From positions 372,001 to 436,000 of the forward strand of contig NZ_NESG01000003.1 of NCBI RefSeq assembly GCF_002778275.1: a DNA stretch of 64,000 nt, given 5' to 3'. Made by a program: the position numbers and the translations under genes. Shown here one piece after another: positions 16,665 to 61,424 of the stretch. The notes beneath the pieces were generated by a model, which was given only the letters and a program-made list of their open reading frames with translations, was not told the DNA's origin and made no database searches. Origin of the DNA: Limnohabitans sp. G3-2 (GTDB lineage Bacteria > Pseudomonadota > Gammaproteobacteria > Burkholderiales > Burkholderiaceae_C). Every line of letters begins with the position of its first letter. The stretch's first letter is position 1.

Positions 16665-18095
16665 ATGGTCAACCCTGATATTTCCGCCGTCGATTTGTCC
16701 CGCGCCATACACCTCAAGCAGGTGTCATGCCAAGAAGTGATGCAGTCCACACTGGCGCGCATTGCGCGACTGAATCCGCAATCGAACGCCATCGTCAGCC
16801 TGCAAGAACCCGAGTTGTTGATGGCGCAAGCGCGCGAGCGCGATGCGCAGCTGGCCCGCGGCGAGTCCATGGGCTGGATGCATGGCATGCCCCAAGCCAT
16901 CAAGGATTTGGCGAATGCAAAAGGCGTGCGCACCACGCTGGGCAGCCCCCTCATGAAGGACTTTGTGGCCCCTGAAGATGGCCTCATGGTTCAGCGCATG
17001 AAAGCCGCTGGCGCCATCGTCATTGGCAAGACCAACACGCCCGAGTTTGGGTTGGGGTCGCACACCTTCAACGAAGTGTTTGGCCCCACCCGCAACGCCT
17101 GGAACCCCGGCAAATCGGCAGGCGGCAGCAGCGGTGGTGCAGCGGTGGCGCTGGCCCAGCGCTTGTTGCCGGTGGCCGACGGCTCGGACTTCATGGGCAG
17201 CTTGCGCAACCCCGCGGGGTGGAACCATGTGTTTGGTCTGCGCCCCTCACAAGGCCGCGTGCCCATGTCGCCCGCGCAAGATGTGTTCGTGGCCCAATTG
17301 CCCACCGAAGGCCCCATGGCCCGCCATGTGGCGGATTTGGCCATGCTGCTGTCGGTGCAAGCGGGTGCGCACCCGTCCAGCCCCTTGAGCCTGACGCAAG
17401 ACCCTGCCGTCTTTGCAGGATCTCTGGCCAGCAACCCCAAAGGCTTGCGCATGGGTTGGCTGGGCAATTTGCAGGGCTACTTGCCGATGGAAGACGGGAT
17501 TCTCGACGTCTGCCAAGCCGCGCTGAACAGTTTTTCGGGGATGGGCTGCAGCGTGGACGAAGCCCGACTGGGCATGCCCCCCGAAGAAATTTGGCGCACT
17601 TGGTTGGTCTGGCGGCAAGCTTTGGTCGGTCCGCGCATCGCCCCTTTCTTGCTCAACCCGGCCAACCGAGCACACATCAAAGCCGAAGCCCTTTGGGAAC
17701 ACGAGCAGTCCCTGGGTTTGACCGGTACCCAACTGCTGGCTGCCAGTGCCAGCCGCACGCGCTTTTACCAAAGCATGTTGGCCCTGTTTGACCAATTCGA
17801 CGTGCTGGCCATTCCGGTTGCGCAGGTGTGGCCTTTCGATGTGGGCTTGCGCTGGCCCCAAACGGTTGCTGGGCAAAGCATGGACACCTACCACCGCTGG
17901 ATGGAAGTGGTGATCTACGCCACGCTGGCAGGCCTGCCCTCGATCAGCGTGCCTGCAGGTTTTGGCCAGAACGGTTTGCCCATGGGCCTGGCCTTGATTG
18001 GCAAACCCCAAGGCGACTGGGATTTGCTGAAGCTGGCCCACGCTTACGAGATGGCGAATTCAGACATGATCGCCCGCCGCCCGCCGGGTGTTTGA
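16665..18095 (+). CDS. Amidase signature family hydrolase, divergent from importer
   Basis: A 476-residue amidase with the triad Lys80 (AIKDLA), Ser155 (first Ser of GGSSGG) and Ser179 (FMGSLRNPA). It resembles the group annotated as AtzF/6-aminohexanoate-cyclic-dimer or indoleacetamide hydrolases only in general shape, so the substrate stays open. The start is the ATG at 16665, giving MVNPDISAVDLS; upstream in-frame codons cross the intergenic promoter region. Divergence from the importer operon suggests joint regulation. Confidence 0.85.
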   Translation: MVNPDISAVDLSRAIHLKQVSCQEVMQSTLARIARLNPQSNAIVSLQEPELLMAQARERDAQLARGESMGWMHGMPQAIKDLANAKGVRTTLGSPLMKDFVAPEDGLMVQRMKAAGAIVIGKTNTPEFGLGSHTFNEVFGPTRNAWNPGKSAGGSSGGAAVALAQRLLPVADGSDFMGSLRNPAGWNHVFGLRPSQGRVPMSPAQDVFVAQLPTEGPMARHVADLAMLLSVQAGAHPSSPLSLTQDPAVFAGSLASNPKGLRMGWLGNLQGYLPMEDGILDVCQAALNSFSGMGCSVDEARLGMPPEEIWRTWLVWRQALVGPRIAPFLLNPANRAHIKAEALWEHEQSLGLTGTQLLAASASRTRFYQSMLALFDQFDVLAIPVAQVWPFDVGLRWPQTVAGQSMDTYHRWMEVVIYATLAGLPSISVPAGFGQNGLPMGLALIGKPQGDWDLLKLAHAYEMANSDMIARRPPGV

Positions 18096-45033: not shown

Positions 45034-46017
45034 TCAAACCATCCACTGCGCCAGCGCGTCGCTGGTGGCTTCGGGCAGTTCTTCTGGGATGAAGTGACCA
45101 GAGGCCAAGACCTGGCCTGCCACTTGGCCAGCGCACTGCGCTTGCCACAACGCAACCGGTTTGAACATGCGGTTGACCACGCCCCGACTGCCCCACAGAA
45201 CCAGCGTGTCGCACGCGATTTTGTCGCCGCGCTCTCGGCCCTCCAAGTCGTGCTGCAGGTCAATGCCCGCGCTGGCACGGTAGTCCTCGGCCGCGCTGTG
45301 GATGGCGGCGGACCAGCCTTGGTCGTTGAGTGCGGGGTTGCAAAAGGCGCGTTCGTATTCGGCCAAGGCTTCAGGCTCGATGTAGCCCATGCCTTGGCTG
45401 CCCCAGCCGCCCAGCTTGGCGTGCAGATAGGCCTTGGGGTTGCCGCCGATCATGAACTCGGGCAAGGGCGCAGGCTGCGCCAGGTGGAACCAGTGGTAGT
45501 AGGCCTTTGCAAACGCAAAGTACGGGTCGGCCACCGGGCCGGAGACCTCAGGGGTTTGACCCGGCAATGGGCCCCAAAAACCGCTGTACATGTCAAACGT
45601 AGGCGCGATGTCGATGACGCACAACTTCTTGACGCGTTGGGCATGGTCCAGCGCCAAACGGTGCGCCACGCGGCCACCCCGGTCGTGACCGCACAGAAAG
45701 AAATCGCCCACGCCCAGCGCGTCGAGCAAGTCCACCACTTCTTGCGCCATGGCGCGTTTGCTGTAGTGCGCGTGCTCGGCGTCGCCCACGGCGTGCGACG
45801 AGTCGCCGTAGCCCCGCAGGTCGGGCATCACCAGGCGGTAACGGCCGCGCAGGTTTTGCGCAACGCGGTGCCACATGACATGGGTTTGCGGAAAGCCGTG
45901 GAGCAGCACCAGCACAGGCAGGTGCGCTTGCGCCGCCCAATCGGCCGATTGCCGAAAGCACACGGGCAAGCCCGCCACCGTGCGCGTATGCCGTTCGAAG
46001 CCTTCAAACCAGGCCAT
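45034..46017 (-). CDS. Alpha/beta hydrolase, fluoroacetate/haloacetate dehalogenase type
   Basis: A 327-residue alpha/beta hydrolase. Key features match fluoroacetate dehalogenases: HGFPQTHVMWH (40-50), nucleophile Asp112 in GHDRGGR with two substrate-binding Arg, and the halide-site pair His175-Trp176 in HWFHLAQPAPLPE. The catalytic His is in SGHFIPEE near 312. It may hydrolyse a haloacid or an epoxide/ester instead. It is the last gene of the left catabolic unit and starts within the stop codon of the Bug protein gene (TGATG). Confidence 0.82.
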   Translation of the reverse strand: MAWFEGFERHTRTVAGLPVCFRQSADWAAQAHLPVLVLLHGFPQTHVMWHRVAQNLRGRYRLVMPDLRGYGDSSHAVGDAEHAHYSKRAMAQEVVDLLDALGVGDFFLCGHDRGGRVAHRLALDHAQRVKKLCVIDIAPTFDMYSGFWGPLPGQTPEVSGPVADPYFAFAKAYYHWFHLAQPAPLPEFMIGGNPKAYLHAKLGGWGSQGMGYIEPEALAEYERAFCNPALNDQGWSAAIHSAAEDYRASAGIDLQHDLEGRERGDKIACDTLVLWGSRGVVNRMFKPVALWQAQCAGQVAGQVLASGHFIPEELPEATSDALAQWMV

Positions 46018-47027
46018 CAGTCGACCTTGGCGCCCGAGGCTTTGACGACCTCGGCCCACTTCTTGTGCTCGGCGTCAATCAGCGCGGCAAACTGTGCCGG
46101 CGTGTTGCCGCTGGGGATGGCCCCCAAGGTGGCCAGGCGCTCTTTCATGGCAGGAGAGGCCAATGACTTGGCGACTTCTTGCTGGATGCGGCTGACCACA
46201 TCGGCAGGCGTACCTGCCGGAGCCAGCAAACCGAACCAGCTGCTGGCTTCAAAGCCTTTGAGGCCAGCCGCTTCTTCCACGGTAGGCAAGTCGGGCAAAG
46301 CGGCCGAGCGTTGGGCGCTGGTCACGGCCAAGGCCTTGAGTTTGCCCGCCTTGATGAGCTGCATGGCCGAGGGCAGGTTGTCGAACATCACGTCCATGCT
46401 GCCGCCCGCCAAATCGAGCAAGGCCGGGCCGGAGCCGCGGTATGGGATGTGCGCCATGAAGGTGCCAGTTTGCGACTTGAACAACTCGCCCGCCAAGTGG
46501 ATGGAGGTGCCGTTGCCGCTCGACGCCATGTTCAGTTTGCCAGGGTTGGCTTTGGCGTATTTGATGAAATCGTTGACGCTGTTGATTTTGTTGGCGGCGG
46601 CTTTTTCGGCGTTGACCACCATCACGTTGGGCACACCCGCCACGAGGGTGATGGGGGCAAAGTCTTTGAAGGGGTCGTAGGGCAGCTTGGCGTACAGGGC
46701 GCGGTTGATGCCGTGCGTGCCCACGGTGCCCATGAGCAGGGTGTAGCCGTCGCCTGCCGATTTGGCCACTTGTTCGGCCCCCAGGTTGCCGCCTGCGCCG
46801 CCCTTGTTTTCGATCACGAACTGCTGGCCAAAGGCTTTGGCCAAATCAGGGGCGATGGCACGGGCCAGGATGTCGGTGGTGCCACCGGGTGCAAAAGGCA
46901 CCACGATCTTGACCGGTTTGTTGGGCCAGGCGGTTTGCGCCCAGGCCAAAGACGTGGTCGACAACAGAACTGCGGCCGCCATGCCCAGAACCGGGCGGCG
47001 AGTGAAATGGCGTGACAGCTGAACCAT
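46017..47027 (-). CDS. Bug-type (TctC) tripartite tricarboxylate transporter binding protein
   Basis: A 336-residue periplasmic binding protein of the family greatly expanded in Burkholderiales. Signal peptide at 1-30 ([19 protein letters not shown]). Mature part begins [19 protein letters not shown], the family hallmark, and contains [17 protein letters not shown] near 75. AAGGAG 7 bases before 47027 decides the start over an upstream ATG. No TctA/TctB membrane subunits are present, as is usual for orphan Bug proteins; it probably captures the substrate or a carboxylic acid of this pathway. Confidence 0.9.
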
Positions 47028-47112
47028 GCGTATCTCCTTGTTTTGATGCATTGGATGATGATGCCATGCAGGTGTGACAACGCTGTCACGCAGGCGAAGA
47101 AAGGGGTGGTTT

Positions 47113-48663
47113 TTAAGGGTTTGTCCCGGTCAAAAGGGCCAGCAAAGCGGGCTTTTGCACCTTGCCCAAAGCGCTCTTGGGCAGGCTGTCCATGAACACC
47201 ACGCGGCGCGGCAACTTGAAGCGCGCAATGCGCGACTGCAGATGGGCCAGCACCGCGGGTTCACTCAGGGCTTGCCCTGCAGCGTCGGGGCTGCGCACCA
47301 ACACCGCCACGGGCACTTCGCCCCAGCGGGCATCGGCCACGCCGACCACCGCGTTGTCGGCCACACCGGGCAAGGTGACGAGCTGGTTTTCGATTTCGGC
47401 CGGGTAGATGTTCTCGCCGCCCGAGATGATCATGTCCTTGCTGCGGCCCACGATGGTGATGCAGCCGTCTTCGGCGCGCTGGCCCAGGTCACCCGAGTGG
47501 AACCAACCGTCCTGCAGACCCGTGTGGGACTTGCCGTTGGCACACCAGTAGCCGCGCATCAGGTTGGCCGCGCGGATGCAGACTTCGCCCGTCTCACCCG
47601 GGCCCACTTCCTGCCCTTGGGCGTCGATCAGTTTGACCTGCGCCTCAGGTTGCGGCCAGCCCGAAGCGCCCACGCGGGCCATGGCGTCCGGCAGGCGCAG
47701 CACGATGGACACCGGGCCTGTTTCGGTGGTGCCATAGACCTGCCCGACGGGCACGCCGCGCGCATGCAGGGTTTCAAGGTAAGCCACAGGCACGGTGGAC
47801 GAGCCGGTCATGATGCCGCGCAGGCTGGCCAGCGAGGTGTCGGCCCAGCGCGGGTGTTCGAACACGGCGCGCATGGTGGCGGGCACCAAGAGCGACAGCG
47901 TGGGGCGGCTGGTGTGCATTTCGTCCAGCCAAGCCGTGGGGTCAAAGCGGGGGTGCAGCACCACCTCGACACCGGCCAGCAGCGCAGGCAAGGTCTGGAT
48001 GCACAGGCCGCCCACATGGAACATCGGCAAGGTGGACAGCACTTTGTCGCCGGGGGCAAAGTGATGCGCCCAAGCACTGGCGCGGGCATTGGCCAGCAGC
48101 GCCGCTTGCGTGTGCACCGCCCCCTTGGGCACGCCCGTGGTGCCAGAGGTGTAGACGAGCAGCAGCGGCAGCTCGCCATGGACGGCAGGCCGCGGCAGTT
48201 CGCGCGGCGAAGCGGTCGCGATCAGGCTGTCGTGGTGGGTGTGCTGCAGGTCGGCCCCTTGCAGCGCACGGGCTGTATCGGCATGGTGGCTGTCGTGCAC
48301 CAAGAGGCGCGGCTGGGCGTCTTGCATGACCTGCTGCAGCTCGGGCACGGCCAAGCGAAAGTTGAGCGGCAAGAACACCGCACCCAAACGGGCGCAGGCC
48401 ACCAGCGTGACCAGTTGCAGCTCGTGGTTGAAGCCGAGCCAGGCCACGCGCTCGCCCGGCTGCACGCCCCAGGTGGACTGCAGGTGCGCGGTGACGCGTG
48501 CCACGCGCCGCCAGAATTTGGCAAAGTCGTAAGCGAAGGTGCTGTCACCCGTCTGGGTGGCTTTGCGCTCATCGCCCCGGAAGGTCATGGCGGGCTGCGT
48601 GCCGCAGTCTTGCGCCAGCTGCGCAAAGCGCGCCGCGAGGGGGCTGGTTTCGTCGCCCACCAT
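47113..48663 (-). CDS. Acyl-CoA ligase (AMP-dependent synthetase)
   Basis: A 516-residue ANL-family ligase activating a carboxylic acid to its CoA thioester. P-loop [11 protein letters not shown] near 178-188, core motif YGTTETGP near 312, and the hinge [20 protein letters not shown] near 418. It resembles the fatty/aryl acid CoA ligases rather than the 2-aminobenzoate ligase encoded at 53678-55357. Coupled by one-base overlap to the upstream acyl-CoA dehydrogenase-fold gene. Substrate unknown. Confidence 0.88.
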
Positions 48664-49931
48664 CACTCGTCTTTTTCGCCAGGTTCGTACAGCGCTTCGC
48701 GGCCGATGCGGTCCATGCACAGCTCGGCCGTCCAGGGCAGCATGAGCGAGCCGCAACGTGCATCGCGGTACAGGCGCTCGAGCGGCAGGCTTTTGAGCAT
48801 GGACTGACCGCCGCAGGTGCGGATGGCCAAACGGGCGATGTCTTGCGCGTTTTCCATGATGGTGTACTGCGCGGCGTAGGCCCGCAGGCGGGTGGACTTG
48901 GCTGGATCGACCTTGGCGTCTTCAATGGCACGCAAGAACAGGTTGCGGGTCTGCTCGAGCTTGATGAACATCTCGGCCACGGCGATCTGCTTGGTGGCGA
49001 ACTGGCGGCGCTTGACGGGGCCCGTGCCCGGAATTTCGCCTCGCAGATAGGCCACCGTGAAGTCATACGCCGCTTGCGCGATGCCCATGTAGGTGGGTGA
49101 GAGCGTCATGAACATGTGCGGCCAGCGGCTGGCCGCTTGGAAGTAAAGGCCCTGCGGCATGAGCGCTGCGTCGTCGGGCACGAACACGTCATTGAAGATC
49201 AAGTTGCGCGACACGGTGGCGCGCATGCCCAGCGGGTCCCAAGCGCCTTCGATCGTCAGACCCGGCGCGGTGCGGGGGATGGCCAGGTACAGCGTGTCGC
49301 GGCGCGACAGATCAGCACCCTCTTTTTTCTCGGTGCAGAGCACGCCAAAGTAATCGGCCGCATCGGACAGGGAGGCGAAGATTTTTTTGCCATTGATCTT
49401 CCAGCCGCCATCGACCTTGACGGCGAGGGTGCCAAAGGGTTGCGCGCCTGAGGCGGCAGCGCCGCCTTCTGAAAATGGTTGTGCGTAAATCGCGCCGTCC
49501 TTCACCACCCGCGCAAAGTGCGTGGCCTGGTGCGTGCGGTGTGAGGCGCGTTGCTCGGGCGTCATGTCCAGGTCTTCGGACAGCAAGCCGCTCCACAGCA
49601 TGGTGCAAACATGCATGTTGAAAGTCAGCGCGGTCGCGCCGCAGTAGCGACCGATCTCGGCCGACACCATCGCATACGTCGCGTAATCGGCACCTTGACC
49701 GCCATGCGCTTCGGGCACGCACAGGGCCAGCAGGCCCGAGTCGCGCATGTCGCCGTAGTTGGCAAACGGAAACTGGGCGTCGCGGTCGAGCTGCGCGGCA
49801 CGTAGGGCGAATTTCTCACGGCCCAGTTGCCGTGCCAGTGCCATCAGCTTTTGCTGCTTCTCGGTCAGGGGGTAGTCGTCGCCACAGATGGGCATGACGT
49901 CTGGTTGGGAGGGGGCTTGCACGTCGGTCAT
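48663..49931 (-). CDS. Acyl-CoA dehydrogenase-fold flavoprotein, atypical active site
   Basis: A 422-residue member of the acyl-CoA dehydrogenase superfamily, with N-terminal helical domain, central beta domain and C-terminal helices (RTCGGQSMLKSLPLERLYRD). The segment where typical enzymes carry the catalytic Glu in YEGTxEI reads RDARCGSLMLPW here, so the canonical base is not at that place. It could use a base elsewhere or be a group-D flavin monooxygenase, which share the fold and need a flavin reductase such as the one at 52165. It overlaps the next upstream gene by ATGA. Confidence 0.8.
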   Translation of the reverse strand: MTDVQAPSQPDVMPICGDDYPLTEKQQKLMALARQLGREKFALRAAQLDRDAQFPFANYGDMRDSGLLALCVPEAHGGQGADYATYAMVSAEIGRYCGATALTFNMHVCTMLWSGLLSEDLDMTPEQRASHRTHQATHFARVVKDGAIYAQPFSEGGAAASGAQPFGTLAVKVDGGWKINGKKIFASLSDAADYFGVLCTEKKEGADLSRRDTLYLAIPRTAPGLTIEGAWDPLGMRATVSRNLIFNDVFVPDDAALMPQGLYFQAASRWPHMFMTLSPTYMGIAQAAYDFTVAYLRGEIPGTGPVKRRQFATKQIAVAEMFIKLEQTRNLFLRAIEDAKVDPAKSTRLRAYAAQYTIMENAQDIARLAIRTCGGQSMLKSLPLERLYRDARCGSLMLPWTAELCMDRIGREALYEPGEKDE

Positions 49932-50710
49932 GGTTTCACGTCCTTCAGAAATTTGTCGAGTTCGGCGTTGAACGCCTCGGGCTGTTCGCAATGCAGCAAA
50001 TGCCCAGCTCCGGCCAGGCAGGCGTAGCGCGCACCGGGGATCTTTTGCGCCATCCTCTCCATCACGGCGGGCGGGGCGGTGCGGTCATGCTCGGCGGCCA
50101 GGCACAGCACGGGCACAGAGAGGGTGGGCAAAGCGGCGCGTTGCTCAAACTGCACCAGCGCATGCAGGGCGGCGCGGTAGGTGGCGGGTGGCACGGCCGA
50201 CATGCTTTGGTGTGCCGACTTGAGCCGGAGCGCATCGCCACCGGGCGCGGCCATGCTGGGGATCAGCTTGCCCGCGATGTCGCCCATGGTTTTACCCGCG
50301 TCCAGCGGGGCCAGGCGTTGCGCCAAAAACTGCTTTTGAAAATCACCGTCGCTGTGACCAAACGCCGGGCTGCTGGCGGCCAGCAGCAGGCCACGGATGC
50401 GCTCAGGCTTTTGCGTCCAGGCCTGCAGGGCCACCATGGCCCCCATGCTGTGGCCCACCAACACGGCTTGGTCGATGTGCGCCGCGTCCAGCATCTGCCA
50501 GAGGGCTTGCGCCAAGTGCGCGAAGTCATAAGGGCTGACCATGGGGCTGTCGCCATAACCGGGCATGTCCCAGGCCAGACTGCGCCAACCCAAGGCGGCC
50601 ACATGCGCTTGCTGCGCAGCCCAGCCGTGTCGGCCGCCACCCACGCCGTGCAAGAAGACCACGGCGGGCTGTGTGGGCAAGCCCACGTCGGTGAAGGCGG
50701 GCGTAGTCAT
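49928..50710 (-). CDS. Alpha/beta hydrolase in NicX-like operon
   Basis: A 260-residue hydrolase with oxyanion HGVGGGRHGW (near 22) and nucleophile Ser in GHSMGAM (near 91), a catalytic Asp near EHDRTAPP and His in GAGHLLHCE. In nicotinate degradation the deformylase NicD, also an alpha/beta hydrolase, lies next to nicX; this neighbour could act likewise on the ring-cleavage product. That link is by position only. ATG at 50710; a TTG one codon upstream is less likely. Confidence 0.85.
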   Translation of the reverse strand: MTTPAFTDVGLPTQPAVVFLHGVGGGRHGWAAQQAHVAALGWRSLAWDMPGYGDSPMVSPYDFAHLAQALWQMLDAAHIDQAVLVGHSMGAMVALQAWTQKPERIRGLLLAASSPAFGHSDGDFQKQFLAQRLAPLDAGKTMGDIAGKLIPSMAAPGGDALRLKSAHQSMSAVPPATYRAALHALVQFEQRAALPTLSVPVLCLAAEHDRTAPPAVMERMAQKIPGARYACLAGAGHLLHCEQPEAFNAELDKFLKDVKP

Positions 50711-50751
50711 CAAAAGTACCGCCTCAAAATCTGCCGCCTTGCAGCTTGGAT

Positions 50752-50825
50752 GTGGGAGGCCGCCCCTGCGGCCGAATGTTCAACGCGGCCCCTTCCGACA
50801 TTCGCGAGCAGGGGCTCGCTCCCAC
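50752..50825. repeat. REP-like hairpin element, copy 2
   Basis: Same 74-base family as 44045-44118, with GTGGGAG and CTCCCAC ends. Together with the following 54 bases it forms the first unit of a 128-base direct tandem duplication (50752-50879 and 50880-51007). Confidence 0.85.
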
Positions 50826-50879
50826 AGGGATTCACAGGCGTGCAATCTTCCTTCTTCATGAAAGTGCATCCGTTTGAAT

Positions 50880-50953
50880 GTGGGAGGCCGCCCCTGCGGC
50901 CGAATGGTTGAAGTGGCTCCGGCCCAAATTCGCGAGCAGGGGCCCGCTCCCAC
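50880..50953. repeat. REP-like hairpin element, copy 3
   Basis: Second unit of the 128-base tandem duplication. Its tail (from 50984) contains the last codons and stop of the dioxygenase-like gene, so the duplication copied that coding end into the space downstream, where a non-coding twin remains at 50856-50878. Confidence 0.85.
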
Positions 50954-50983
50954 AGGGATTCACAGGCGTGCAACCTTGCATCT

Positions 50984-52069
50984 TCATGAAAGTGCATCCG
51001 TTTGAACCACCCCAGCATCGACCACCACCGTGTCGTCAAGCCGGATGGTGCAGCCGCGCATGGGCAGGTCAAAGTGGCCCAGCGTGTGGCGGCCCGCAAC
51101 TTCGTTGGCCCCGGTCGAATACAAAAAGTTGCCTGCAAAAGCCCGCAACTCGGTGCCGTTGCAGTCGCGCTTGTCATAAAACGCCATGGCGTCCCAACGC
51201 GCCGCCGGGTTCAGGCCAAAGCCCACGTGCGAGACGGCATAGGCGGCGCGGTGGCCCTCGGCGTCTTCCCAGGCTTTCCAGTAGCCGCGCATCATGTCCA
51301 CATCCACGCCCTGCCCCTCGATGGCGACCACGCTGTCGTGCTCGATGGTCAGGCGGATCGTGTCGCGCAAATAGCTTTTGAAGGTCAGGTTCACGTCGCC
51401 CGGAGCCATGACCAGCGTGCCGTTGACACTGCCCGCGGCCGGGAAAGCCAGCGCCAGCCCAGCAGGCCAGTGCGACACCATGCCCGGCTTGGGGCAAAAG
51501 CCCCACACACCGCCCACCACGGCTTGTTTGTCGCCCTGTTTCAGGTTCACGCGCAGGTCGGTGCCTGCGGCAGACGTGACGTGCATCTGCTGCGCAGAGC
51601 GCAGTTTCTTCATCGCAGCACGCACCACGCCTTCGAGCGCCGGATCGGGCACGGTGCGCTCCAAAATTTCAGGGTGCTCGTTGGACACCATCAAGAGACG
51701 CGGCATGTGCCCGTCCACACCCTTCATGATGGTGGGCAACTCGGGCGCGTGCAGCAGGCCTTCAACAGTGCAGTCCACCACCATGTCGGCGCGGGCCAAT
51801 GCAGCCACCACGGGACCGAGTTGCCCAATCGCGTCGCTCGCGCCTGTGGAACGCACGGGCGCGGGGGCAGTCAGAGCGGGCGTGGTCAACGTCACCTCGA
51901 ACACGCGGGCGCCCATGGCCTCCAGCGCGAGGCGGGCCAAGTCCACGTTGACCCGGCGTGATTGGGTTTCGGCCAAAATAGCGACCACTTCGCCAGGCTG
52001 CACCTTGCACAGCGTGAAGGTGCGGGTAAAGGCCGCGAGCCACCTGTTTTCGATTCGTTCCACCAGCAT
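50984..52069 (-). CDS. NicX-like non-heme iron ring-cleaving dioxygenase
   Basis: A 361-residue protein related to 2,5-dihydroxypyridine 5,6-dioxygenase NicX, which descends from the M29 aminopeptidase fold; databases may call it 'leucyl aminopeptidase'. The three Fe ligands of NicX (His265, His318, Asp320, from memory) have clear counterparts: His281 in SHVGFG and His332/Asp334 in GHFDLP. Other shared parts are HWPAGLALAFP, GDVNLTFKSYLRD and FAGNFLYSTGAN. AAGGAG lies 7 bases before the ATG. It leads the left catabolic unit and probably opens an aromatic amine, aminophenol or hydroxypyridine ring. Confidence 0.75.
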   Translation of the reverse strand: MLVERIENRWLAAFTRTFTLCKVQPGEVVAILAETQSRRVNVDLARLALEAMGARVFEVTLTTPALTAPAPVRSTGASDAIGQLGPVVAALARADMVVDCTVEGLLHAPELPTIMKGVDGHMPRLLMVSNEHPEILERTVPDPALEGVVRAAMKKLRSAQQMHVTSAAGTDLRVNLKQGDKQAVVGGVWGFCPKPGMVSHWPAGLALAFPAAGSVNGTLVMAPGDVNLTFKSYLRDTIRLTIEHDSVVAIEGQGVDVDMMRGYWKAWEDAEGHRAAYAVSHVGFGLNPAARWDAMAFYDKRDCNGTELRAFAGNFLYSTGANEVAGRHTLGHFDLPMRGCTIRLDDTVVVDAGVVQTDALS

Positions 52070-52164
52070 GCTTGTCTCCTTGGCCTGCAGCTTTGAACGG
52101 TTCTCCTGCAGACATGAATGGTCAGTTTATATGAAAATTCATGCAATTCAACTATCATCCCCCC
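52070..52164. promoter_or_regulatory. Divergent promoter region with short palindrome
   Basis: The space between the NicX-like and flavin reductase genes is locally AT-rich. It contains ATGAA-AA-TTCAT at 52131-52142, which is symmetric and lies where a MarR dimer could block both promoters. A second ATGAA occurs at 52114-52118. The binding protein is inferred to be the MarR encoded at 52710. Confidence 0.4.
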
Positions 52165-52713
52165 ATGCACCAAGTCCCCCCACCTCACATCAAAGCGCTG
52201 AGTCCAGACTTTGAAACGCCGCATTTCAAGCAAGCCCTGTCGCGCTTTGCCACGGGGGTGACCGTCATCACCACATTCGCGCCAGGCGCACACAAAGGCG
52301 ATTCGGTCAGCAGCAGCTTTGTGGGCATCACCGCCAGTTCATTCAACTCGGTGTCGCTCACGCCCCCGTTGGTGCTGTGGAGCCTGGGGCAAAGCGCCAG
52401 CAGCGCCCCGCTGTTCCATGCGGGCACACATTACGTGGTGAACGTGCTGGCCGCGGATCAGCTGGATGTCTGCAACCGTTTTGCCTTCGGCAAAGGCGAC
52501 CGCTTTGCCGACACCGCTTACACGCTGGGCGCATCGGGTTTGCCCATTTTGGATGGGGCGCTGGCCTGGTTCGAATGCCACAACCGCAGCCGCCACGAAG
52601 AAGGCGACCATGTGATTTTTGTGGGCGAAGTGGAGCGCTGCGGCTTCAGCGATGGCTCGGCCCCACTCGTTTACCAGGGCGGTCGGTTCAGCACCACGGT
52701 GGCCCTGTCATGA
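52165..52713 (+). CDS. Flavin reductase family protein
   Basis: A 182-residue FMN-binding split-barrel protein with FKQALSRFATGVTVITT, the flavin site SSSFVGITASSFNSVSLTPP, and HYVVNVLA. Such proteins supply reduced FMN/FAD to two-component monooxygenases. No classical oxygenase component lies next to it; candidates in the cluster are the atypical dehydrogenase-fold protein at 48663. Start uncertain: an ATG at 52141 would add eight residues but lies within the palindrome. It overlaps the MarR gene by ATGA. Confidence 0.83.
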   Translation: MHQVPPPHIKALSPDFETPHFKQALSRFATGVTVITTFAPGAHKGDSVSSSFVGITASSFNSVSLTPPLVLWSLGQSASSAPLFHAGTHYVVNVLAADQLDVCNRFAFGKGDRFADTAYTLGASGLPILDGALAWFECHNRSRHEEGDHVIFVGEVERCGFSDGSAPLVYQGGRFSTTVALS

Positions 52714-53144
52714 GCAACACGCCAGGCTTTGTCGACGACTACCTGGCCTATTTGCTGGCGCGCGCCAGCCATTTGATTTCGAGCGAATTTCACGCCGTGG
52801 TCGAGGCCAGTGGCCTGTCCCTGATGGAGTGGCGCGTCATGGCCAGCCTGTCGGGCAAAGCAGCGCTGAGCGTGGGTGAGTTGGCCGACATTGTGCTGGC
52901 CAAGCAACCCACTGTGACCAAGTTGGTGGGCCGCATGGCAGAAGCTGGTTGGGTCCGACGCGTTGACGCCCCGCACGACAAGCGCCAGTCTCTGGTCAGC
53001 CTCACGGCCACGGGTCAACGCAAGGTCAAGCCCTTGCTGGCCCAAGCACGGGCACATGAAGCCCAGATCATGAAAGACATCGGATCAGACCCGGTTCATC
53101 AGCTCAAGCAGGCGCTGGAGCAGCTGATCGCGGTGCGGGCGTAG
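52710..53144 (+). CDS. MarR family regulator (left module)
   Basis: A 144-residue winged-helix regulator: ALSVGELADIVLAKQPTVTKLVGRMAEAGWV (about 55-85, in two helices) and the wing DAPHDKRQSLVSLT near 90-103. Proteins of this family release DNA on binding an aromatic or CoA-thioester ligand. It is translationally coupled to the flavin reductase and is the probable repressor of the divergent NicX-like operon. Confidence 0.88.
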   Translation: MSNTPGFVDDYLAYLLARASHLISSEFHAVVEASGLSLMEWRVMASLSGKAALSVGELADIVLAKQPTVTKLVGRMAEAGWVRRVDAPHDKRQSLVSLTATGQRKVKPLLAQARAHEAQIMKDIGSDPVHQLKQALEQLIAVRA

Positions 53145-53150
53145 CGCATT

Positions 53151-53546
53151 TCACTCCGGCACCACCGCCGTCACCTCAATCTCCACCAAAGCCCGGTCCT
53201 CCACCAGATCGGCCACTTGGACCAGCGTCATGGCCGGGTAGTTCTTGCCGATGACTTCCTGGTAGACCTTGCCCAACTCGCGACCACGGGCCAGGTATTC
53301 CTTTTTGTCTTTGACGTACCAGGTCATGCGGGCCATGTGCTTGGGGCCTGCGCCGGCGCAGGCCAGTGTGTCGACGATGTTTTGCAGGGCCTGGCGGCAC
53401 TGGGCCACAAAGTCGTCGGTCTCGAATTGGGCTTGGCCGTTCCAGCCGATCATGCCCGCGACGAACACCATGCGGCCACGCGCTTCGATGCCGTTGGCAT
53501 AGCCTTTGGCGGGTGCCCAGCCTTCGGGTTGCAAGACGTTGAACAT
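53151..53546 (-). CDS. RidA family enamine/imine deaminase
   Basis: A 131-residue RidA/YjgF protein. Members hydrolyse reactive enamine or imine intermediates to ketone and ammonia. Marks: VFVAGMIGWNG near 30 and the catalytic Arg region MARMTWYV near 75. A YjgF-like gene also belongs to the Azoarcus 2-aminobenzoate clusters, where ring reduction gives an enamine-type CoA thioester; that supplies a clear role here. AAGGAAAAG precedes the ATG. Separated from the ligase gene by three 41-base hairpin repeats. Confidence 0.85.
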   Translation of the reverse strand: MFNVLQPEGWAPAKGYANGIEARGRMVFVAGMIGWNGQAQFETDDFVAQCRQALQNIVDTLACAGAGPKHMARMTWYVKDKKEYLARGRELGKVYQEVIGKNYPAMTLVQVADLVEDRALVEIEVTAVVPE

Positions 53547-53564
53547 GCTTTTCCTTTATCAGTT

Positions 53565-53677
53565 GGGGACAGAGCTAAAGATCTGTCCCGCAAGGTTGTT
53601 CAAATGGGGACAGAGCTAAAGATCTGTCCCGCAAGGTTATTCAGATGAGGACAGTGCTCAAGGTCTGTCCCGCAAAG

Positions 53678-53687
<10 letters not shown>
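53565..53687. repeat. Three tandem 41-base hairpin repeats
   Basis: Units start at 53565, 53606 and 53647. Each contains GGGACAG...CTGTCCC, then GCAAGGTT and a short tail; the first two differ at two bases, the third is more diverged. The third unit contains the stop codon of the CoA ligase gene (53678-53680). Similar GGGGACAG/CTGTCCC hairpins are known to me as REP elements linked to IS200-like (RAYT) transposases, none of which is encoded here. Confidence 0.85.
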
Positions 53688-55357
<1,670 letters not shown>

Positions 55358-55358
55358 G

Positions 55359-56543
55359 TCAAGCTTTCAGCAAGTCTTTGCCGATGATCAGCTGCTGCAC
55401 TTCGGTGGCGCCTTCGTAAATGCGCAGCGCCCGGATCTCACGGTACAGCGACTCGACCATCACGCCTTTTTTGACGCCCATGCCGCCGTGCATCTGCACC
55501 GCCATGTCGATGATCTGCTGGGCGTTTTCGGTCGCCTTCATCTTGGCCATGGCCGCTTCACGGGTGATGCGCCCGCCCTGGTCGCGCAGCCAAGCGGCGC
55601 GGTAGGTCAAGAGCGTGGCCGCATCGAGCATCGTGGCCATCTGGGCGATCTTGGTTTGGGTGATCTGAAAGTCGCCCAGGCTTTGGCCAAACATCTTGCG
55701 TGAACGCGCCCAATGGATGGACTCGTGCAGCGCACGCCGCCCAAAGCCCAAAGCGGCCGCCGCCACCGAGGTGCGGAACACATCGAGCGTGGCCATGGCC
55801 ACCTTGAAGCCTTGGCCCGCTTCGCCAATGCGCTGATTGCTTGCCACCTTGCAGTGGTCAAACTTGAGCGTGGCCAGCGGGTGCGGTGCGACCACGTCGA
55901 TGCGCTCTTCAATCGACAGACCGGGTGTGTCGGCATCGACAATGAAGGCGGTGATGCCGCGTGCGCCCGGGGCTTCACCCGTGCGGGCGAACACCACATA
56001 AAAGTCGGCGATCCCCCCATTGCTGATCCAGGTCTTGCGGCCATTGAGCACATAGCCGTCTGCGGTGGCCGTGGCGCTGCACTGCATGGCGGCCACGTCC
56101 GAGCCCGCATCGGGTTCACTCAAGGCAAAGGCGCTCAAGGCCTGGCCCGATGCCACACGCGCCAAGTAGCGCTGCTTTTGATCGTCGCTGCCCATGAGGC
56201 TGATGGCGCCGGTGCCCAAGCCCTGCATGGCAAACGCGAAGTCAGACAAGCCGTTGTGAAAGGCCAGCGTTTCGCGCAGCAAGCACAGCTGGCGCGTGTC
56301 GATCACGTCCGACGCTGCGCCATAGGCCGTGCCCGATACCGCATGCTTGAGCCAGCCGCCTGCGCCCAGCAGGCGCACCAGACGGATGCATTCGGCGTCC
56401 ACCGCGTCACGGCTTTCGTCGTGATGGGCGTGTGCAAGGTGCTCTTGACACCAAGCGTCCAGGCGCACTTTGAAGTCGCGGTGGCTGTCGTCAAAGAAAG
56501 GCCAGTCGAGTTCTGGCGGGTGGGTGGCTGGGTGGTCTGACAT
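55359..56543 (-). CDS. Acyl-CoA dehydrogenase of 2-aminobenzoyl-CoA pathway
   Basis: A 394-residue FAD enzyme with [15 protein letters not shown] near 140, the substrate loop, and the C-terminal [13 protein letters not shown], in which Glu is the usual catalytic base. It would introduce a double bond into the CoA thioester formed after ring reduction. Three bases separate it from the enoyl-CoA hydratase stop, showing operon membership. Confidence 0.88.
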
Positions 56544-56546
56544 GGC

Positions 56547-57407
56547 TCAGTCGCCTTCAAAGATGGGCGTTTGTTTGGCCACAAAGGCGTGGTAGGCCCG
56601 GTGGAAGTCGTTGGTGGCCATGCAGATGGCTTGCGCCTGGGCTTCGGCCTCAATGGCTTCGTCCACGCCCATGTTCCATTCTTGTTGCAGCATTTTTTTG
56701 GTGATGCCGTTGGCAAAGGTGGGGCCGGCCACCAGCTGGGCGGCGATGGCTTGTGCATCGGCCAGCAGGCTGCCTGCCTCGCACACGCGGTTGTAAAAGC
56801 CCCAGCGCTCGGCTTCCAGCGCCCCCAGGCCACGCCCGGTGAACAGCAGCTCGCTGGCACGGCCCTGGCCGATGATGCGCGGCAAAAGCGCGCACGCGCC
56901 CATGTCGCAACCGGCCAAGCCGACCTTGTTGAACAAGAAATAGGTTTTGCTGCGCTCGGTGCCGTAGCGCAGGTCAGAGGCCATGGCCAAGATCGCGCCA
57001 GCGCCCGCGCACACGCCGTCAATCGCCGCGATGATGGGCTGCGGGCAAGCGCGCATGGCCTTGACCAAGTCGCCCGTCATGCGGGTGAAAGCCAAGAGGC
57101 CGGGCATGTCGAGTTGGGTGAGCGGGCCGATGATCTCATGCACATCGCCACCCGAGCAGAAGTTACCGCCCTCGCCCGTGATGACCACGGCGTGGATGTC
57201 GGGTGCGTAGGGCAAAGCGCGGAAAAAGTCGCGCAGTTCGGCGTACGAGTCAAACGACAGCGGGTTCTTGCGCTCGGGGCGGTTCAGGCTCACCGTGGCC
57301 ACACCGCCCTTGACGGACAGCAAAAAATGCTCGGGCTGGTAGAGCGCCATGGACTGGTTGTGGCGGGGCAGCTGGTGCGGCTGGCCGGGCAAGTAGCGTT
57401 GGCTCAT
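56547..57407 (-). CDS. Enoyl-CoA hydratase/isomerase of 2-aminobenzoyl-CoA pathway
   Basis: A 286-residue crotonase-fold protein: [15 protein letters not shown] near 41-55, oxyanion loop [15 protein letters not shown] near 79-93, and [19 protein letters not shown] near 125-143. Such enzymes hydrate or hydrolyse alicyclic CoA thioesters in this pathway. The start is 57407 because GGAGG lies 7 bases before that ATG; a later ATG at 57350 is possible. Confidence 0.87.
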
Positions 57408-57447
57408 GACTGACCCTCCACCGGGCTGCCCCAAGCAGGGCAAAGCC

Positions 57448-57491
57448 CTCTCGGGGGGCAGTGAGTACACGAAGTGACGAGCGTGGGGGTC
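57448..57491 (+). repeat. Inverted repeat copy A beside MarR gene
   Basis: Element CTCTCGGGGGGCAGTGAGT...CGAGCGTGGGGG. It lies between the enoyl-CoA hydratase and MarR genes and reaches into the MarR stop codon. Copy B in opposite orientation is at 57973-58019. Confidence 0.75.
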
Positions 57492-58062
57492 ATGGTTTCT
57501 CCTTCGAATGTGTTGATGTGCCGGACTTCAAAGTGCCCAGCAAGGTGTGCAGTTGTGTTTGCTCTCGTTCAGCCAGCGGCGACAGCAGCTCGACGACCCA
57601 GCCCTCGTGTGCCTGGGCCATGGCCGCAAATGCGCTGCGCCCGGCCTCGGTCAGGCTGACGGTGTAGGAGCGGCGGTCGCTGGCCTGCATTTGCCGCTGC
57701 ACCAGTTGTTCTTTTTCGAGCTGGTCGACGATGGCTGTGACGTTGCCCCCCGTGACCATCATGCGGCGCGACAGCTCGCTCATCGACAAGCCTTGCGGCT
57801 CGCGCTCGAGCTGCGCCATCAGGTCAAAGCGCGGCAGCGTGATGCCAAACTGCTCGCGCAAACGTTGGCGGATGGTGTCTTCGATGCGGGTGGTGGCCGA
57901 GAGCAGACGCAGCCACAAGCGCAGCGAGGCGTGGTGGTCGGCGTGCGCGCGCACTTCCATGTCGACAGATGCGGCCCCCACGCTCGGTACGGCGTGTCCT
58001 TCGCTGCCCCCCGAGGGGGTGCGAGCTGGTTTGAGGCGGCTTGGCGCTGCGCTCGCGCTCAT
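57490..58062 (-). CDS. MarR family regulator (2-aminobenzoate module)
   Basis: A 190-residue winged-helix regulator: [30 protein letters not shown] (about 92-121, in two helices) and wing [12 protein letters not shown] near 127-138. Azoarcus abm clusters also contain a MarR-like gene. ATG at 58062 overlaps the SDR stop (ATGA), but the first 34 residues are read from a dispersed repeat ([17 protein letters not shown]) and may be dispensable; an ATG at 57960 would give a more usual length. Likely target: the palindrome at 61425. Confidence 0.85.
57973..58019 (-). repeat. Inverted repeat copy B within MarR 5' end
   Basis: Opposite-orientation partner of 57448-57491, about three quarters identical by eye, with the shared cores CTCGGGGGGCAG and CGAGCGTGGGGG. 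The pair brackets the MarR coding region. Confidence 0.75.
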
Positions 58063-58850
58063 CCCGCCAACTCCCCACCATCGATGGCGATGGCCTGTCC
58101 GTTGACGGCATCGCTGCCGGCGGCGCACAGCCACAGCACGCTTTGCGCCACTTCGTGCGGCTGCACCAAGCGCTGCTGCGGGTTGCTGGCAGCCAGCGCT
58201 TGGCGCGCTTCGGTTTCACTCTTGCCTGTTTTATTCACGATGTTTTGCACCGCTTCGCGCACGATGTCGGTCTCGGTGTAACCGGGGCAAATGGCGTTCA
58301 CGGTCACACCTTTGCGGGCCAATTCGAGGGCCAGCGCTTGGGTCAGGCCCACCACGCCGTGCTTGGCGGCCACATAGGCGCTCACATAGGCATAGCCCTT
58401 GAGCCCTGCGGTGCTGGCGATGTTGACGATGCGCCCGGGCGTTCCACTGGCTGCCGCTTCAAGCATGCCCGGCAGCACCGCCTGGATGCAGTGGTAGGTG
58501 CCCGTCAGGTTGACGTTCAGCATCCGCTGCCACAGCGCGGCATCGGTCTTGGCAAAGGGCGCGCTGTGCGCCTGGCCCGCGTTGTTGACCAGGATGTTCA
58601 CCGGGCCAAAGCGGGCTTGCGCTTGCTGCACCGCCGCTTGCACGGCGTGTTCATCGGCCACGTCCATGGGCGCGACCAGCACCGCCACGTCGGGCACTTG
58701 CGCGCGCAGTGCCTCGGCCTGCGCCTGCAGCTTGTCTTGCGAGCGGCCACACAGGGTCAGGCGGCAACCCGCTTGCGCCAGTGTCAGGGCAATGGCCGCG
58801 CCAATGCCAGCACCCGCGCCAGTGATGAGGGCATGGCGATTGCTCAGCAT
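58059..58850 (-). CDS. SDR family 3-hydroxyacyl-CoA dehydrogenase-like oxidoreductase
   Basis: A 263-residue classical short-chain dehydrogenase: GAGAGIGAAIA (11-21), NNAGQAHSAPFA near 90, the Ser of IASTAGLKG near 146 and YVAAKHG near 159-165. In the 2-aminobenzoyl-CoA pathway an SDR oxidises a beta-hydroxyacyl-CoA intermediate. GAGG lies 8 bases before the ATG. It overlaps the MarR gene by four bases. Confidence 0.88.
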   Translation of the reverse strand: MLSNRHALITGAGAGIGAAIALTLAQAGCRLTLCGRSQDKLQAQAEALRAQVPDVAVLVAPMDVADEHAVQAAVQQAQARFGPVNILVNNAGQAHSAPFAKTDAALWQRMLNVNLTGTYHCIQAVLPGMLEAAASGTPGRIVNIASTAGLKGYAYVSAYVAAKHGVVGLTQALALELARKGVTVNAICPGYTETDIVREAVQNIVNKTGKSETEARQALAASNPQQRLVQPHEVAQSVLWLCAAGSDAVNGQAIAIDGGELAG

Positions 58851-58891
58851 GCGTTCACCTCTGCAGGCGCAGCGCTCTCGGCGCGATTGGA

Positions 58892-58989
58892 AATTGTGGG
58901 AGCCGCCTCGCTTTGATCGTTTTCTGCGGGAGCGGCGCCCTCGCCGCGATGGACACCCATGCGCGACGAGGGTGTCGCTCCCACCAATT
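58892..58989. repeat. Composite palindromic repeat between SDR and monooxygenase genes
   Basis: Outer arms AATTGTGGGAGC and GCTCCCACCAATT, with a nested GCGGGAGCGGCGCCCTCG/CGACGAGGGTGTCGCTCCC hairpin (58926-58984). It shares the GTGGGAGC ends of the 44045 family but has a different core. The mRNA of the catabolic operon would fold here. Confidence 0.7.
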
Positions 58990-59033
58990 CAAATTGCAAG
59001 GATGTTGAAGTCCCTCCATGTGAATTCAACATC

Positions 59034-61367
59034 TCAATCCCCCTTTGTCGCAGCCTGCTGGGCACGCTCGCGGGCAAATCCCGCTTCGAGCTGGGGCTTG
59101 CCTGACACATAGGCAGGCGGCCAAGCGATGTCTTTGTAGCCAATGCGTGCAGCTTCGGTCAGCGTCCAGGCGGGGTTGGCCAAATGTGGGCGGGCCACGG
59201 CGCACAGGTCGGCGCGCCCAGCGGCCAGGATGCTGTTGACATGGTCGGCCTCAGAGATGGCACCCACTGCGATGGTGGCAATGCCCGCTTCCTGGCGGAT
59301 GCGGTCGGCAAACGGTGTCTGGTACATGCGGCCGTAGGTCGGCTTTTGCTGCGCACTGACCTGGCCCGATGAGCAGTCGATCATGTCCGCACCTGCGGCC
59401 TTGAAGGCGCGGGCGATCTCGACCGCATCGGTGGGCGTGATGCCACCCTCAACCCAGTCATGCGCCGAGATGCGCACCGACATGGGCAGGTCCTGGGGCC
59501 AGGCCGCACGCACAGCGGCAAACACTTCGAGCGGGTAGCGCAGGCGATTGTCGAGCGAGCCGCCGTATTCGTCTGTTCGGTGGTTGGTGAGCGGGCTGAT
59601 GAAGCTCGACAGCAAATAGCCATGAGCACAATGCAACTCCAGCCAGTCAAAGCCAGCTTGTGCAGCGCGCTGGGTGCTGGCCACGAAGTCGGCCGTGACG
59701 CGGTCCATGTCGGCTCGCGTCATGGCACGGGGCACATCACCGTGGGGCAAGTAGGGCATGGGCGATGCAGCGATCAGCGGCCAGTTGCCTTCTGCGTCAT
59801 CCGCGGGCACAGGCTGGTCCATGCCCGGGCCTTGCCAAGGGCGGCAGCTCGAACCTTTGGGCCCGGCGTGGCCGATCTGCAGGCCAATCTTCGCGTCAGA
59901 CTTGGCATGCACCCAATCCACGATTTTTGCAAAGTCGCTGCTCTGCTGCGCATTCCACAGACCCGGGCAGCCGTGTGTGATGCGGCCGTCGGCGCTGGGC
60001 GCGGTCATCTCCACCATCACCAGCCCGGCGCCGCCCATGGCGCGGGCGCCCAAGTGGACCAGGTGGTCGTCGCCCACGCGGCCGTCCACCGCCATGTATT
60101 GCGCCATCGGTGAGACCACCACGCGGTTTTTGAGCGTGACCGAGCGCAGCGCGAACGGCGTGAACATGGGTGGGCGAATACCCGGCTTGGCCGTGCGTCC
60201 CGCAAACCAAGCCTCGTAGCCCTCCAACCAGGCTTTGTCGCGCAGACGCAGATTCTCGTGGCTGATGCGCTGGCTGCGGGTGAGCATGGAGTACATGAAC
60301 TGCTCGGGTTCGAGTTGGTCGCAGTAGCGCTCCCCACAGACCTCGAACCACTCCATCGCATTCCACGCAGCGTTTTGCAACCGAATGACGTCGATCTCGC
60401 GCACGGCTTGGTAGTGTTTCAACACTTCGGGAATGCGGTCGGCGGTGTCCCCCAGCGCCTTGAACTGGCGCACCAGCTCGATGGCGTCTTCGAGTGCGAG
60501 CTTGGTGCCCGAGCCAATCGCAAAGTGCGCGGTGTGCACCGCGTCACCCATCAGCACCACGTGGCTGTTGCCGTTGAAGGTGGACCAGTTGGCACACTTG
60601 ACGCGCTGGAAATTCAGCCATGCCGAGCCACGCAAGTGCCGGGCATTGGTCATCAGCTTCTCGCCTTGCAGGTTCTTGGCAAAAAGCTGTTCACAGAAGG
60701 CGATCGAAGCATCTTGGTCGGCCTTGTCCAAGCCGTGCGCGAGCCAAACATGCTCGGGACACTCAACAATGAAGGTGGAGGTTTGGTTGTCAAACTTGTA
60801 GACGTGCGCCTGAAACCAGCCGTGCTCGGTCTTTTCGAACAAAAAGGTGAAGGCGTCGTATTGGCGATTGGTGCCCAACCAGATGAAGCGGTTGGGACGG
60901 GTGACGATGTCGGGCTGAAATACCTCAGGCATGCGGCTGCGCACACGCGAATTGACGCCATCACTGGCAATGATGAGATCGGCATCCGGAAAGTCCAAAT
61001 CCGAATTCACGTCTTGCTCAAACAGGAGCTTGACGCCGACTTGCTCGCACCGGTCTTGCAAAATATTGAGCAATTTTTTACGGCCAATGCCCACAAAACC
61101 GTGGCCACCCGAGCGGATCACCTGGTCCTTGAAGTGCAACTCGATGTCATCCCAATGGTTGAAGGCCTGCTCCACCTCGGCTGCGGTCTCGGTGTCCCAC
61201 TGGCGCATGTTCTCCAGCGTTTGATCAGAAAACACCACGCCCCAGCCAAAGGTGTCGTAAGGCTTGTTGCGCTCGACCACGGTGATGTCGTGGTGGGGGC
61301 CGAGCTTTTTCATCAGCAACGCAAAGTACAAACCCGAAGGTCCACCGCCAATACACACGATTTTCAT
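59034..61367 (-). CDS. Fused 2-aminobenzoyl-CoA monooxygenase/reductase
   Basis: A 777-residue two-domain flavoenzyme. Residues 1-385 form a FAD-dependent aromatic hydroxylase (GGGPSG at 7-12, [14 protein letters not shown] near 277). Residues 395-775 form an Old-Yellow-Enzyme reductase ([51 protein letters not shown]). In Azoarcus evansii this fusion hydroxylates and then reduces the ring of 2-aminobenzoyl-CoA with NAD(P)H and O2. Databases often label relatives as salicylyl-CoA 5-hydroxylase; the 2-aminobenzoate ligase and RidA in the operon favour the anthranilate role. First gene of the right unit; promoter palindrome 58 bases upstream. Confidence 0.87.
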
Positions 61368-61424
61368 GTTCGTTCTCTTTGCTACTGACCGCACAGGTCA
61401 TTGATTAAAGCCTATATATTTCAG

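Follow-up and report, generated by a model that had tools for sequence, protein, structure and literature searches.

The closest described counterparts of the catabolic module reported here, which is built around a NicX-like dioxygenase and lies in a 64,000-nucleotide stretch of the 3.25 Mb genome of the freshwater bacterium Limnohabitans sp. G3-2 (contig NZ_NESG01000003.1, positions 372,001 to 436,000; hereafter the window), belong to four systems: 1) the nic cluster for nicotinate; 2) the iif/ind clusters for indole in Acinetobacter and Cupriavidus; 3) the iac cluster for indole-3-acetate; 4) the 2-aminobenzoyl-CoA pathway of Azoarcus evansii. The dioxygenase of the first, NicX, binds Fe(II) through His265, Ser302, His318 and Asp320 and holds the C2 oxygen of dihydroxypyridine with Glu177 (PMC7910607). 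For indole, N-formylanthranilate was proposed as a bacterial intermediate in 1953, Cupriavidus is described as breaking down indole-derived anthranilate via a 2-aminobenzoyl-CoA cluster, and a 2018 review holds that iif cannot be the sole indole-degradation cluster (PMC6221969). Flavoproteins of the acyl-CoA dehydrogenase (ACAD) fold are among the enzymes described as acting on indole: XiaF, which is accompanied by a flavin reductase, hydroxylates it at C3 (PMC5481743), and IacA accepts indole, not indole-3-carboxylate or tryptamine (PMC7225977).

We tentatively read the cluster in the window as a MarR-controlled module that would oxygenate and open the nitrogen ring of a benzo-fused N-heterocycle and deliver anthranilate to a neighboring 2-aminobenzoyl-CoA pathway. 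Two units diverge within it, a leftward one with the order NicX-like, alpha/beta hydrolase, ACAD-fold flavoprotein, CoA ligase, Bug and dehalogenase-like genes, and a rightward one with a flavin reductase followed by a MarR regulator (Table 1); all these genes, which the earlier note had grouped as a module of six to eight, were confirmed in place. The module resembles the nic cluster in the NicX fold, the Fe(II) ligand set, His105 and a nearby MarR gene, as well as in its logic of flavin-dependent oxygenation, ring cleavage beside the nitrogen and action of an alpha/beta hydrolase. It differs from it in the loss of Glu177, in forming a separate deep clade, in having an ACAD-fold protein in place of the NicC-type oxygenase, in the absence of adjoining nicE and nicF, and in its coupling to anthranilate genes. 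With iif/ind it shares the proposed indolic substrate, the anthranilate product, a two-component flavin oxygenase and, in Cupriavidus, the 2-aminobenzoyl-CoA exit (PMC6221969); however, where iif uses the group E oxygenase IifC with a short-chain dehydrogenase/reductase (SDR) (PMC7225977, PMC6221969), the module has the ACAD-fold and NicX-like proteins, a comparison drawn over the module genes only. The iac cluster likewise combines an ACAD-fold oxygenase, IacA (compared by its description), with a flavin reductase, IacG, but the route as described there has no NicX-like enzyme (PMC7225977). As in the A. evansii pathway, the operon next to the module has a ligase, a 2-aminobenzoyl-CoA monooxygenase/reductase (ACMR) and beta-oxidation-type genes, whereas the module itself adjoins that pathway as described and is not part of it (PMC4539516). 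Among the titles and abstract openings of open-licence literature on NicX, indole, anthranilate, peptidase M29 and Limnohabitans we found no description of this gene cluster; its combination of two-component oxygenation with nitrogen-ring cleavage is apparently undescribed.

A search of 84,980 species genomes confirmed 465 relatives, and the best 80 loci of these 465 were kept for neighborhood counts, a locus being long enough to count if its contig is long enough for, or shows, the gene in question. The alpha/beta hydrolase follows the NicX-like gene in 78 of 78 such loci, the ACAD-fold flavoprotein comes next in order in 75 of 75 and the CoA ligase is present in 62 of 62; upstream, in divergent orientation, are the flavin reductase in 57 of 74 and the MarR gene in 68 of 77. 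The recurrence of the same gene order in other genera means that the set is more than chance, and bears out the conserved catabolic set expected in the earlier note: the conserved module is the NicX-like protein, the hydrolase and the ACAD-fold flavoprotein, usually together with the CoA ligase, the flavin reductase and MarR. The core loci L113 and L115 lack the CoA ligase and retain the ACAD, and the alphaproteobacterial clusters of Ensifer, Aminobacter and the families f91 and f95 have a glutamine-synthetase-like gene and a TetR gene in place of the ligase, with an amino acid-polyamine-organocation (APC) permease annotated in two; those of f91 and Aminobacter carry an extra gentisate-dioxygenase-like cupin and a fumarylacetoacetate hydrolase. 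Two genes that had also been assigned to one pathway with the rest, those for the Bug protein and the dehalogenase-type hydrolase, occur in 28/44 and 34/45 loci outside the Cupriavidus/Pandoraea group versus 0/12 each within it, and were accordingly rejected as core parts. Since the dehalogenase-type hydrolase is not conserved with the module, there is no case for the halogenated substrate that had been considered.

The sole PDB sequence match of the NicX-like protein at E<=1 is Pseudomonas putida NicX (7cn3, E 3.8e-52), to which it is 35-36% identical, and its predicted model (predicted local distance difference test score 86) has the NicX fold (Foldseek match to 7cup, E 2e-38; template modelling (TM) score 0.86 to both 7cup and 7cn3). 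Pfam and NCBIfam scans placed it in no family; the precomputed domain PF26233 is present on 120 of 120 homologues among the matches listed, and its relatives are named 2,5-dihydroxypyridine 5,6-dioxygenase by the Joint Genome Institute (JGI), 'peptidase M29' being another current name. This resemblance and the JGI naming are what speak for a nicotinate-type pathway or a hydroxypyridine one, the latter entertained in the earlier note, with 2,5-dihydroxypyridine or a near analogue as substrate. An alignment of 37 relatives, including the window protein (L001), makes this most improbable: the Fe(II) ligands His265, Ser302, His318 and Asp320 as well as His105 are invariant in all 37, but Glu177 is replaced in every one of them (by V, G, N or T) and both nic-cluster NicX rows retain it. 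Glu308 is likewise replaced in 37/37. Moreover, a deep split with 100/100 support sets the module clade apart from nicotinate NicX in the tree (the midpoint root serving for drawing only), and no nicC, nicE or nicF type gene was found among the ten window proteins scanned, whereas these genes flank NicX in L131 and L132. On these sequence features we file the window enzyme as a predicted NicX-fold dioxygenase other than a 2,5-dihydroxypyridine dioxygenase. It is 98-99% identical to the NicX-like proteins of the closest Limnohabitans records. His189 is retained in 31 of the 37 and replaced by Tyr in L121-L125 and by Ser in L153, none of which shows a module-type ACAD. The NicX-like proteins of L121-L125 and L163 (families f11 and f19) stand outside the core module and probably act on a different substrate.

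In the window the module adjoins a 2-aminobenzoyl-CoA-type operon (53151-61394, minus strand) coding for RidA, a CoA ligase, an ACAD, an enoyl-CoA hydratase, a MarR regulator, an SDR and ACMR. Related neighbors recur in other genomes: kynureninase adjoins the module in all 13 Cupriavidus/Pandoraea-group loci, including L068 (Burkholderiaceae bacterium 16), with neighbors in L069 and L076 exceeding the NCBIfam cut-offs for tryptophan 2,3-dioxygenase (KynA), kynureninase (KynU) and arylformamidase (KynB), and RidA, 2-aminobenzoate-CoA-ligase-type or ACMR genes stand beside it in 44 of the 54 other long-enough loci. ACMR is also beside the module in family f3 (L108, L110, L111, L112), in genome G180 of f11 (L109), in f88 (L147, L148, L156, L157, L161) and in f95 (L155, L162). 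Genome G505 (f88) has RidA, a ligase, an enoyl-CoA hydratase and an SDR near the module and its ACMR match on a different contig, and the Shinella locus L159 has a 51% ligase match and a 63% KynA match, both within 11 kb.

This coupling extends to whole genomes. Among 399 Burkholderiales genomes, a NicX-like match at a threshold of 1e-60 was found in 22, 16 of them with an ACAD adjoining; ACMR is present in 16/16 of these core-module genomes versus 57/399 overall (hypergeometric 4e-15 by genome, which overstates independence as the samples hold related genomes; 1.6e-6 by genus, 9/9 genera versus 39/158). Across the phylum, 14 further genomes have a NicX-like gene at a threshold of 1e-80, all 14 with ACMR versus 61/369, and 12 with the ACAD. 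In 14 of these 30 genomes the distance between ACMR and the NicX-like gene is 0.6-15.3 kb. G234 and L018 are probably one genome, and each enters different counts. Five f19 genomes (L122-L125, L163) have a NicX-like gene and neither a module-type ACAD nor ACMR, and G204 (L126) has a 42% NicX-like protein and ACMR and no module. The earlier note's coupling to the anthranilate operon is thus upheld by the repeated adjacency and the co-occurrence with ACMR. It had left the direction as feeding or fed by; of the 57 ACMR genomes among the 399, 41 lack the core module, and none of the 16 module genomes lacks ACMR, a pattern from which we infer that the module feeds that operon rather than being fed by it. 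Kynureninase is present in 10/16 Burkholderiales and 12/14 further genomes; its absence from 8/30 (6/16 and 2/14) means that anthranilate must come from elsewhere in these genomes. Most simply read, the module probably supplies ACMR with anthranilate, or with the CoA ester of anthranilate, of non-kynurenine origin.

One alternative is a second, parallel route that degrades anthranilate or a hydroxyanthranilate itself, in which the ACAD and the reductase would hydroxylate, the NicX-like enzyme would cleave, and the hydrolase and ligase would process the fragment. The kynurenine-pathway genes adjoining the module are in keeping with it, and the cupin and fumarylacetoacetate hydrolase of f91 and Aminobacter would suit 5-hydroxyanthranilate, a known intermediate (PMC4539516). 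A route of this kind would, however, be expected to stand in for ACMR in some genomes, and 30/30 genomes have ACMR; this, and the lack of kynureninase noted above, renders it unlikely.

The catalytic Glu of acyl-CoA dehydrogenases lies in a C-terminal YEG motif. In the ACAD-fold protein of the module this Glu is absent, with LMLP in its place in all rows that span the stretch, and two true acyl-CoA dehydrogenases keep YEG; the alignment covers the canonical Glu position and not the alternative one of isovaleryl-CoA dehydrogenase, its rows L057, L067 and L128 are cut or misaligned, some ACAD rows of alignments A1 and A3 have over-long N-termini from the choice of start, and loci with odd or short open reading frames (ORFs) were excluded. 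The ACAD fold itself and a cognate flavin reductase gene, in the window and in the above 57 of 74 loci, are features of group D two-component flavin monooxygenases. No His is present in the YRDxRCGxLMLP stretch, where the equivalent of XiaF His371, which lies above the flavin, was sought in an alignment without XiaF itself. Fold comparison could not tell an oxygenase from a dehydrogenase here, and XiaF was not among the matches listed. That the ACAD is instead a true acyl-CoA dehydrogenase acting on the ligase product, with the NicX-like enzyme serving an independent substrate, would agree with its fold matches to acyl-CoA dehydrogenases and the adjoining CoA ligase. We consider this very unlikely, given the missing Glu, the retention of the ACAD in L113 and L115 where the ligase is missing, the flavin reductase that usually accompanies it, and its best two PDB sequences, 5gj7 and 5z8t, the latter titled a flavin-containing monooxygenase.

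From the computed gene set, conservation, coupling, iron site, Glu loss and palindrome (below) we infer a substrate and a series of enzymatic steps as follows: 1) the flavin reductase would supply reduced flavin; 2) the ACAD-fold flavoprotein would oxygenate C3 of an indole, whether the parent compound or an indolic acid, to give an indoxyl; 3) the NicX-like Fe(II) enzyme would cleave the C2-C3 bond to give N-formylanthranilate; 4) the alpha/beta hydrolase would remove formate to leave anthranilate; 5) 2-aminobenzoyl-CoA for ACMR would be formed by the CoA ligase, by its counterpart in the adjacent operon, or by both. The precedent for the third step is NicX, which cuts the C5(OH)-C6(H) bond beside the ring nitrogen to a carboxylate and an N-formyl group; the C3(OH)-C2(H) of indoxyl beside N1 would present the same N-CH=C(OH) arrangement as C6-C5 of 2,5-dihydroxypyridine. 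The succession of flavin-dependent oxygenation, ring cleavage and hydrolysis or deformylation put forward in the earlier note thus remains the best reading, and the proposed route would account for the oxygenase, the reductase, the NicX-like enzyme, the hydrolase and the dependence on ACMR. With more reserve, we suggest as a possibility that the NicX-like protein acts as a bacterial indoxyl 2,3-dioxygenase, together with an ACAD-fold oxygenase and a deformylase, in an unrecognized indole-to-anthranilate route via N-formylanthranilate, and that the same route has spread through Burkholderiales and Alphaproteobacteria, wired to kynurenine and 2-aminobenzoyl-CoA genes. An indolic acid, or a hydroxyindole in the f91 and Aminobacter bacteria, may fit better than indole itself. 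Should the proposed route hold, proteins that now go by 'peptidase M29' or '2,5-dihydroxypyridine dioxygenase' would instead belong to an additional way into anthranilate metabolism, alongside kynurenine and iif-type indole oxidation, the NicX active site would have changed its target from a pyridine to a benzo-fused ring, and the module would provide the first candidate genes for a long-suspected bacterial reaction and a testable candidate for non-iif indole degradation. Were the substrate not indolic, a conserved route tied to 2-aminobenzoyl-CoA would still be defined.

Several points weigh against the route from an indolic substrate to anthranilate. Ten of the 54 loci (L014, L021, L022, L029, L037, L044, L057, L058, L060 and L061) show no 2-aminobenzoyl-CoA neighbor, the flavin reductase is absent from 17/61 loci outside Cupriavidus/Pandoraea, and G670 and G439 have a NicX-like gene and ACMR without a module-type ACAD adjoining. 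In sequence as in fold, the ACAD resembles acyl-CoA dehydrogenases roughly as much as it does any oxygenase. The hydrolase is PcaD-like, near PcaD and esterases, falls under the cut-off of all 25 NCBIfam families among the matches listed, and gave no BLASTP match to NicD at 1e-5. In the 1953 scheme N-formylanthranilate is reached through isatin, and one indole degrader was unable to decompose it (PMC6221969); IacA did not oxidize indole-3-carboxylate (PMC7225977). The glutamine-synthetase-like gene, cupin and fumarylacetoacetate hydrolase of the alphaproteobacterial clusters are not explained by plain indole. Finally, the transporters nearby (Bug, an ABC importer in L147 recognized by eye, a major facilitator superfamily protein in L112 and the APC permeases) point to a polar substrate, and indole requires no transporter. 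Acid-type transporters would suit another benzo-fused N-heteroaromatic, of quinolone or kynurenate type, that is oxygenated, cleaved and hydrolyzed to anthranilate and an acid, with the CoA ligase activating the acid. Fatty-acid, o-succinylbenzoate and malonate ligases give this ligase its top scores, and the ACMR dependence would be equally well accounted for; but C2-C3 cleavage of a 3-hydroxy-4-quinolone would, by chemical reasoning, give no anthranilate directly, and the ligase is absent from L113, L115 and the alphaproteobacterial clusters with the glutamine-synthetase-like gene, so that we regard this alternative as possible though rather doubtful.

Between the divergent units lies the palindrome ATGAANNTTCAT, whose sole exact copy in the window this is. 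For its distribution 116 loci were considered, with L126 dropped (NicX below 45%); 80 have MarR and 35 do not, 31 of the latter having 2.5 kb of readable upstream DNA. The palindrome is present in 76/80 loci with MarR versus 0/31 without; L020 carries it and has its upstream DNA cut. Among the 31, close relatives in which MarR has been lost number nine, with NicX identities of 77-81%, the others being more distant, and these nine also lack the palindrome and the flavin reductase. Elsewhere in the loci (2.08 Mb, counting duplicates) there are three copies of the palindrome, and two of these adjoin the MarR genes of L110 and L112. The palindrome is thus likely a MarR operator, a call made from its pattern of occurrence. 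IacR of the iac cluster is also a MarR regulator. With a single exact copy of the palindrome in the window, nothing indicates that the 2-aminobenzoyl-CoA operon is under this MarR as well. The nine relatives that have lost MarR, the flavin reductase and the palindrome (L041, L044, L049, L050, L051, L054, L056, L065 and L081) keep the NicX-like and hydrolase genes and, on contigs that extend far enough, also the ACAD and ligase.

Table 1. Features of the module and of the adjacent operon (positions in the window)
Feature	Position	Strand	Basis
NicX-like Fe(II) dioxygenase, 361 aa, proposed ring cleaver	50984..52069	-	PDB 7cn3 match, E 3.8e-52
Alpha/beta hydrolase, proposed to act on an N-formyl (or other) amide	49928..50713	-	Pfam PF00561, 1.8e-30
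ACAD-fold flavoprotein, proposed oxygenase component	48663..49931 (ORF 48663-49991, likely start 49931)	-	Pfam PF02771/PF00441/PF08028
AMP-binding acyl/aryl-CoA ligase	47113..48663 (ORF 47113-48756, likely start 48663)	-	PF00501, 1e-76
TctC/Bug solute-binding protein, Limnohabitans-side extra	46017..47051	-	PF03401, 6.5e-77
Fluoroacetate-dehalogenase-like hydrolase, Limnohabitans-side extra	45034..46017 (ORF 45034-46059, likely start 46017)	-	PDB matches
Flavin reductase	52141..52713 (start may be 52165)	+	PF01613, 9.1e-40
MarR regulator	about 52710..53144	+	PF12802, 6.2e-13
Palindrome ATGAANNTTCAT, likely MarR operator	52131..52142		One exact copy in window; tracks MarR among loci
Dispersed-repeat member, 254 bp, between NicX-like and hydrolase genes	50722..50975		97 matches in own genome
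Adjacent operon: RidA	53151-53546	-	Profile scans
Adjacent operon: benzoate-CoA-ligase-like	53678-55357	-	TIGR02262, 352.8 bits, under its 375.25 cut-off
Adjacent operon: ACAD	55359-56543	-	Sequence reading
Adjacent operon: enoyl-CoA hydratase	56547-57470	-	Sequence reading
Adjacent operon: MarR	57490-58134	-	Sequence reading
Adjacent operon: SDR	58059-58850	-	Sequence reading
Adjacent operon: ACMR, 2-aminobenzoyl-CoA monooxygenase/reductase type	59034-61394	-	NF006101, 1328 bits vs cut-off 1078

Start codons were chosen by eye from the ORFs, and the small overlaps that these starts imply suggest translational coupling of the hydrolase with the ACAD, the ACAD with the CoA ligase and the flavin reductase with MarR. 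Since NF006101 is named for salicylyl-CoA 5-hydroxylase, that model does not settle the substrate of ACMR. Several of the matches of the dispersed repeat in its own genome stand in tandem; the NicX-like and hydrolase ORFs, which it separates in the window, overlap in L013. The GHDRGGR and HW stretches of the dehalogenase-like hydrolase align with solved relatives. A PF17645 profile search of the genome for a maleate-isomerase-type gene gave one match (43.8 bits), on a different contig.

Some variant loci carry additional genes. In L129, L152, L154 and L158 the glutamine-synthetase-like gene is found with the cupin and fumarylacetoacetate hydrolase, and in L129, L152 and L158 also with a C-N hydrolase; this version could be a 5-hydroxyanthranilate or hydroxyindole route. 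In L109 (G180) a second, distant NicX-like gene (32%; 16551-17630) adjoins ACMR, with the NicX-like gene of the module itself about 6 kb away. A 2-oxopent-4-enoate-hydratase-like gene adjoins the CoA ligase in L114 (14002-14823) and L117 (2464-3276) of f11, as called from a scan under the cut-off in L114 and from similar N-terminal letters in L117. L031 (CALQKH020000018.1), labelled as a metagenome-assembled genome of Akkermansia muciniphila, holds a Limnohabitans-like module with 94% NicX identity, and this bin is probably contaminated or mislabelled.

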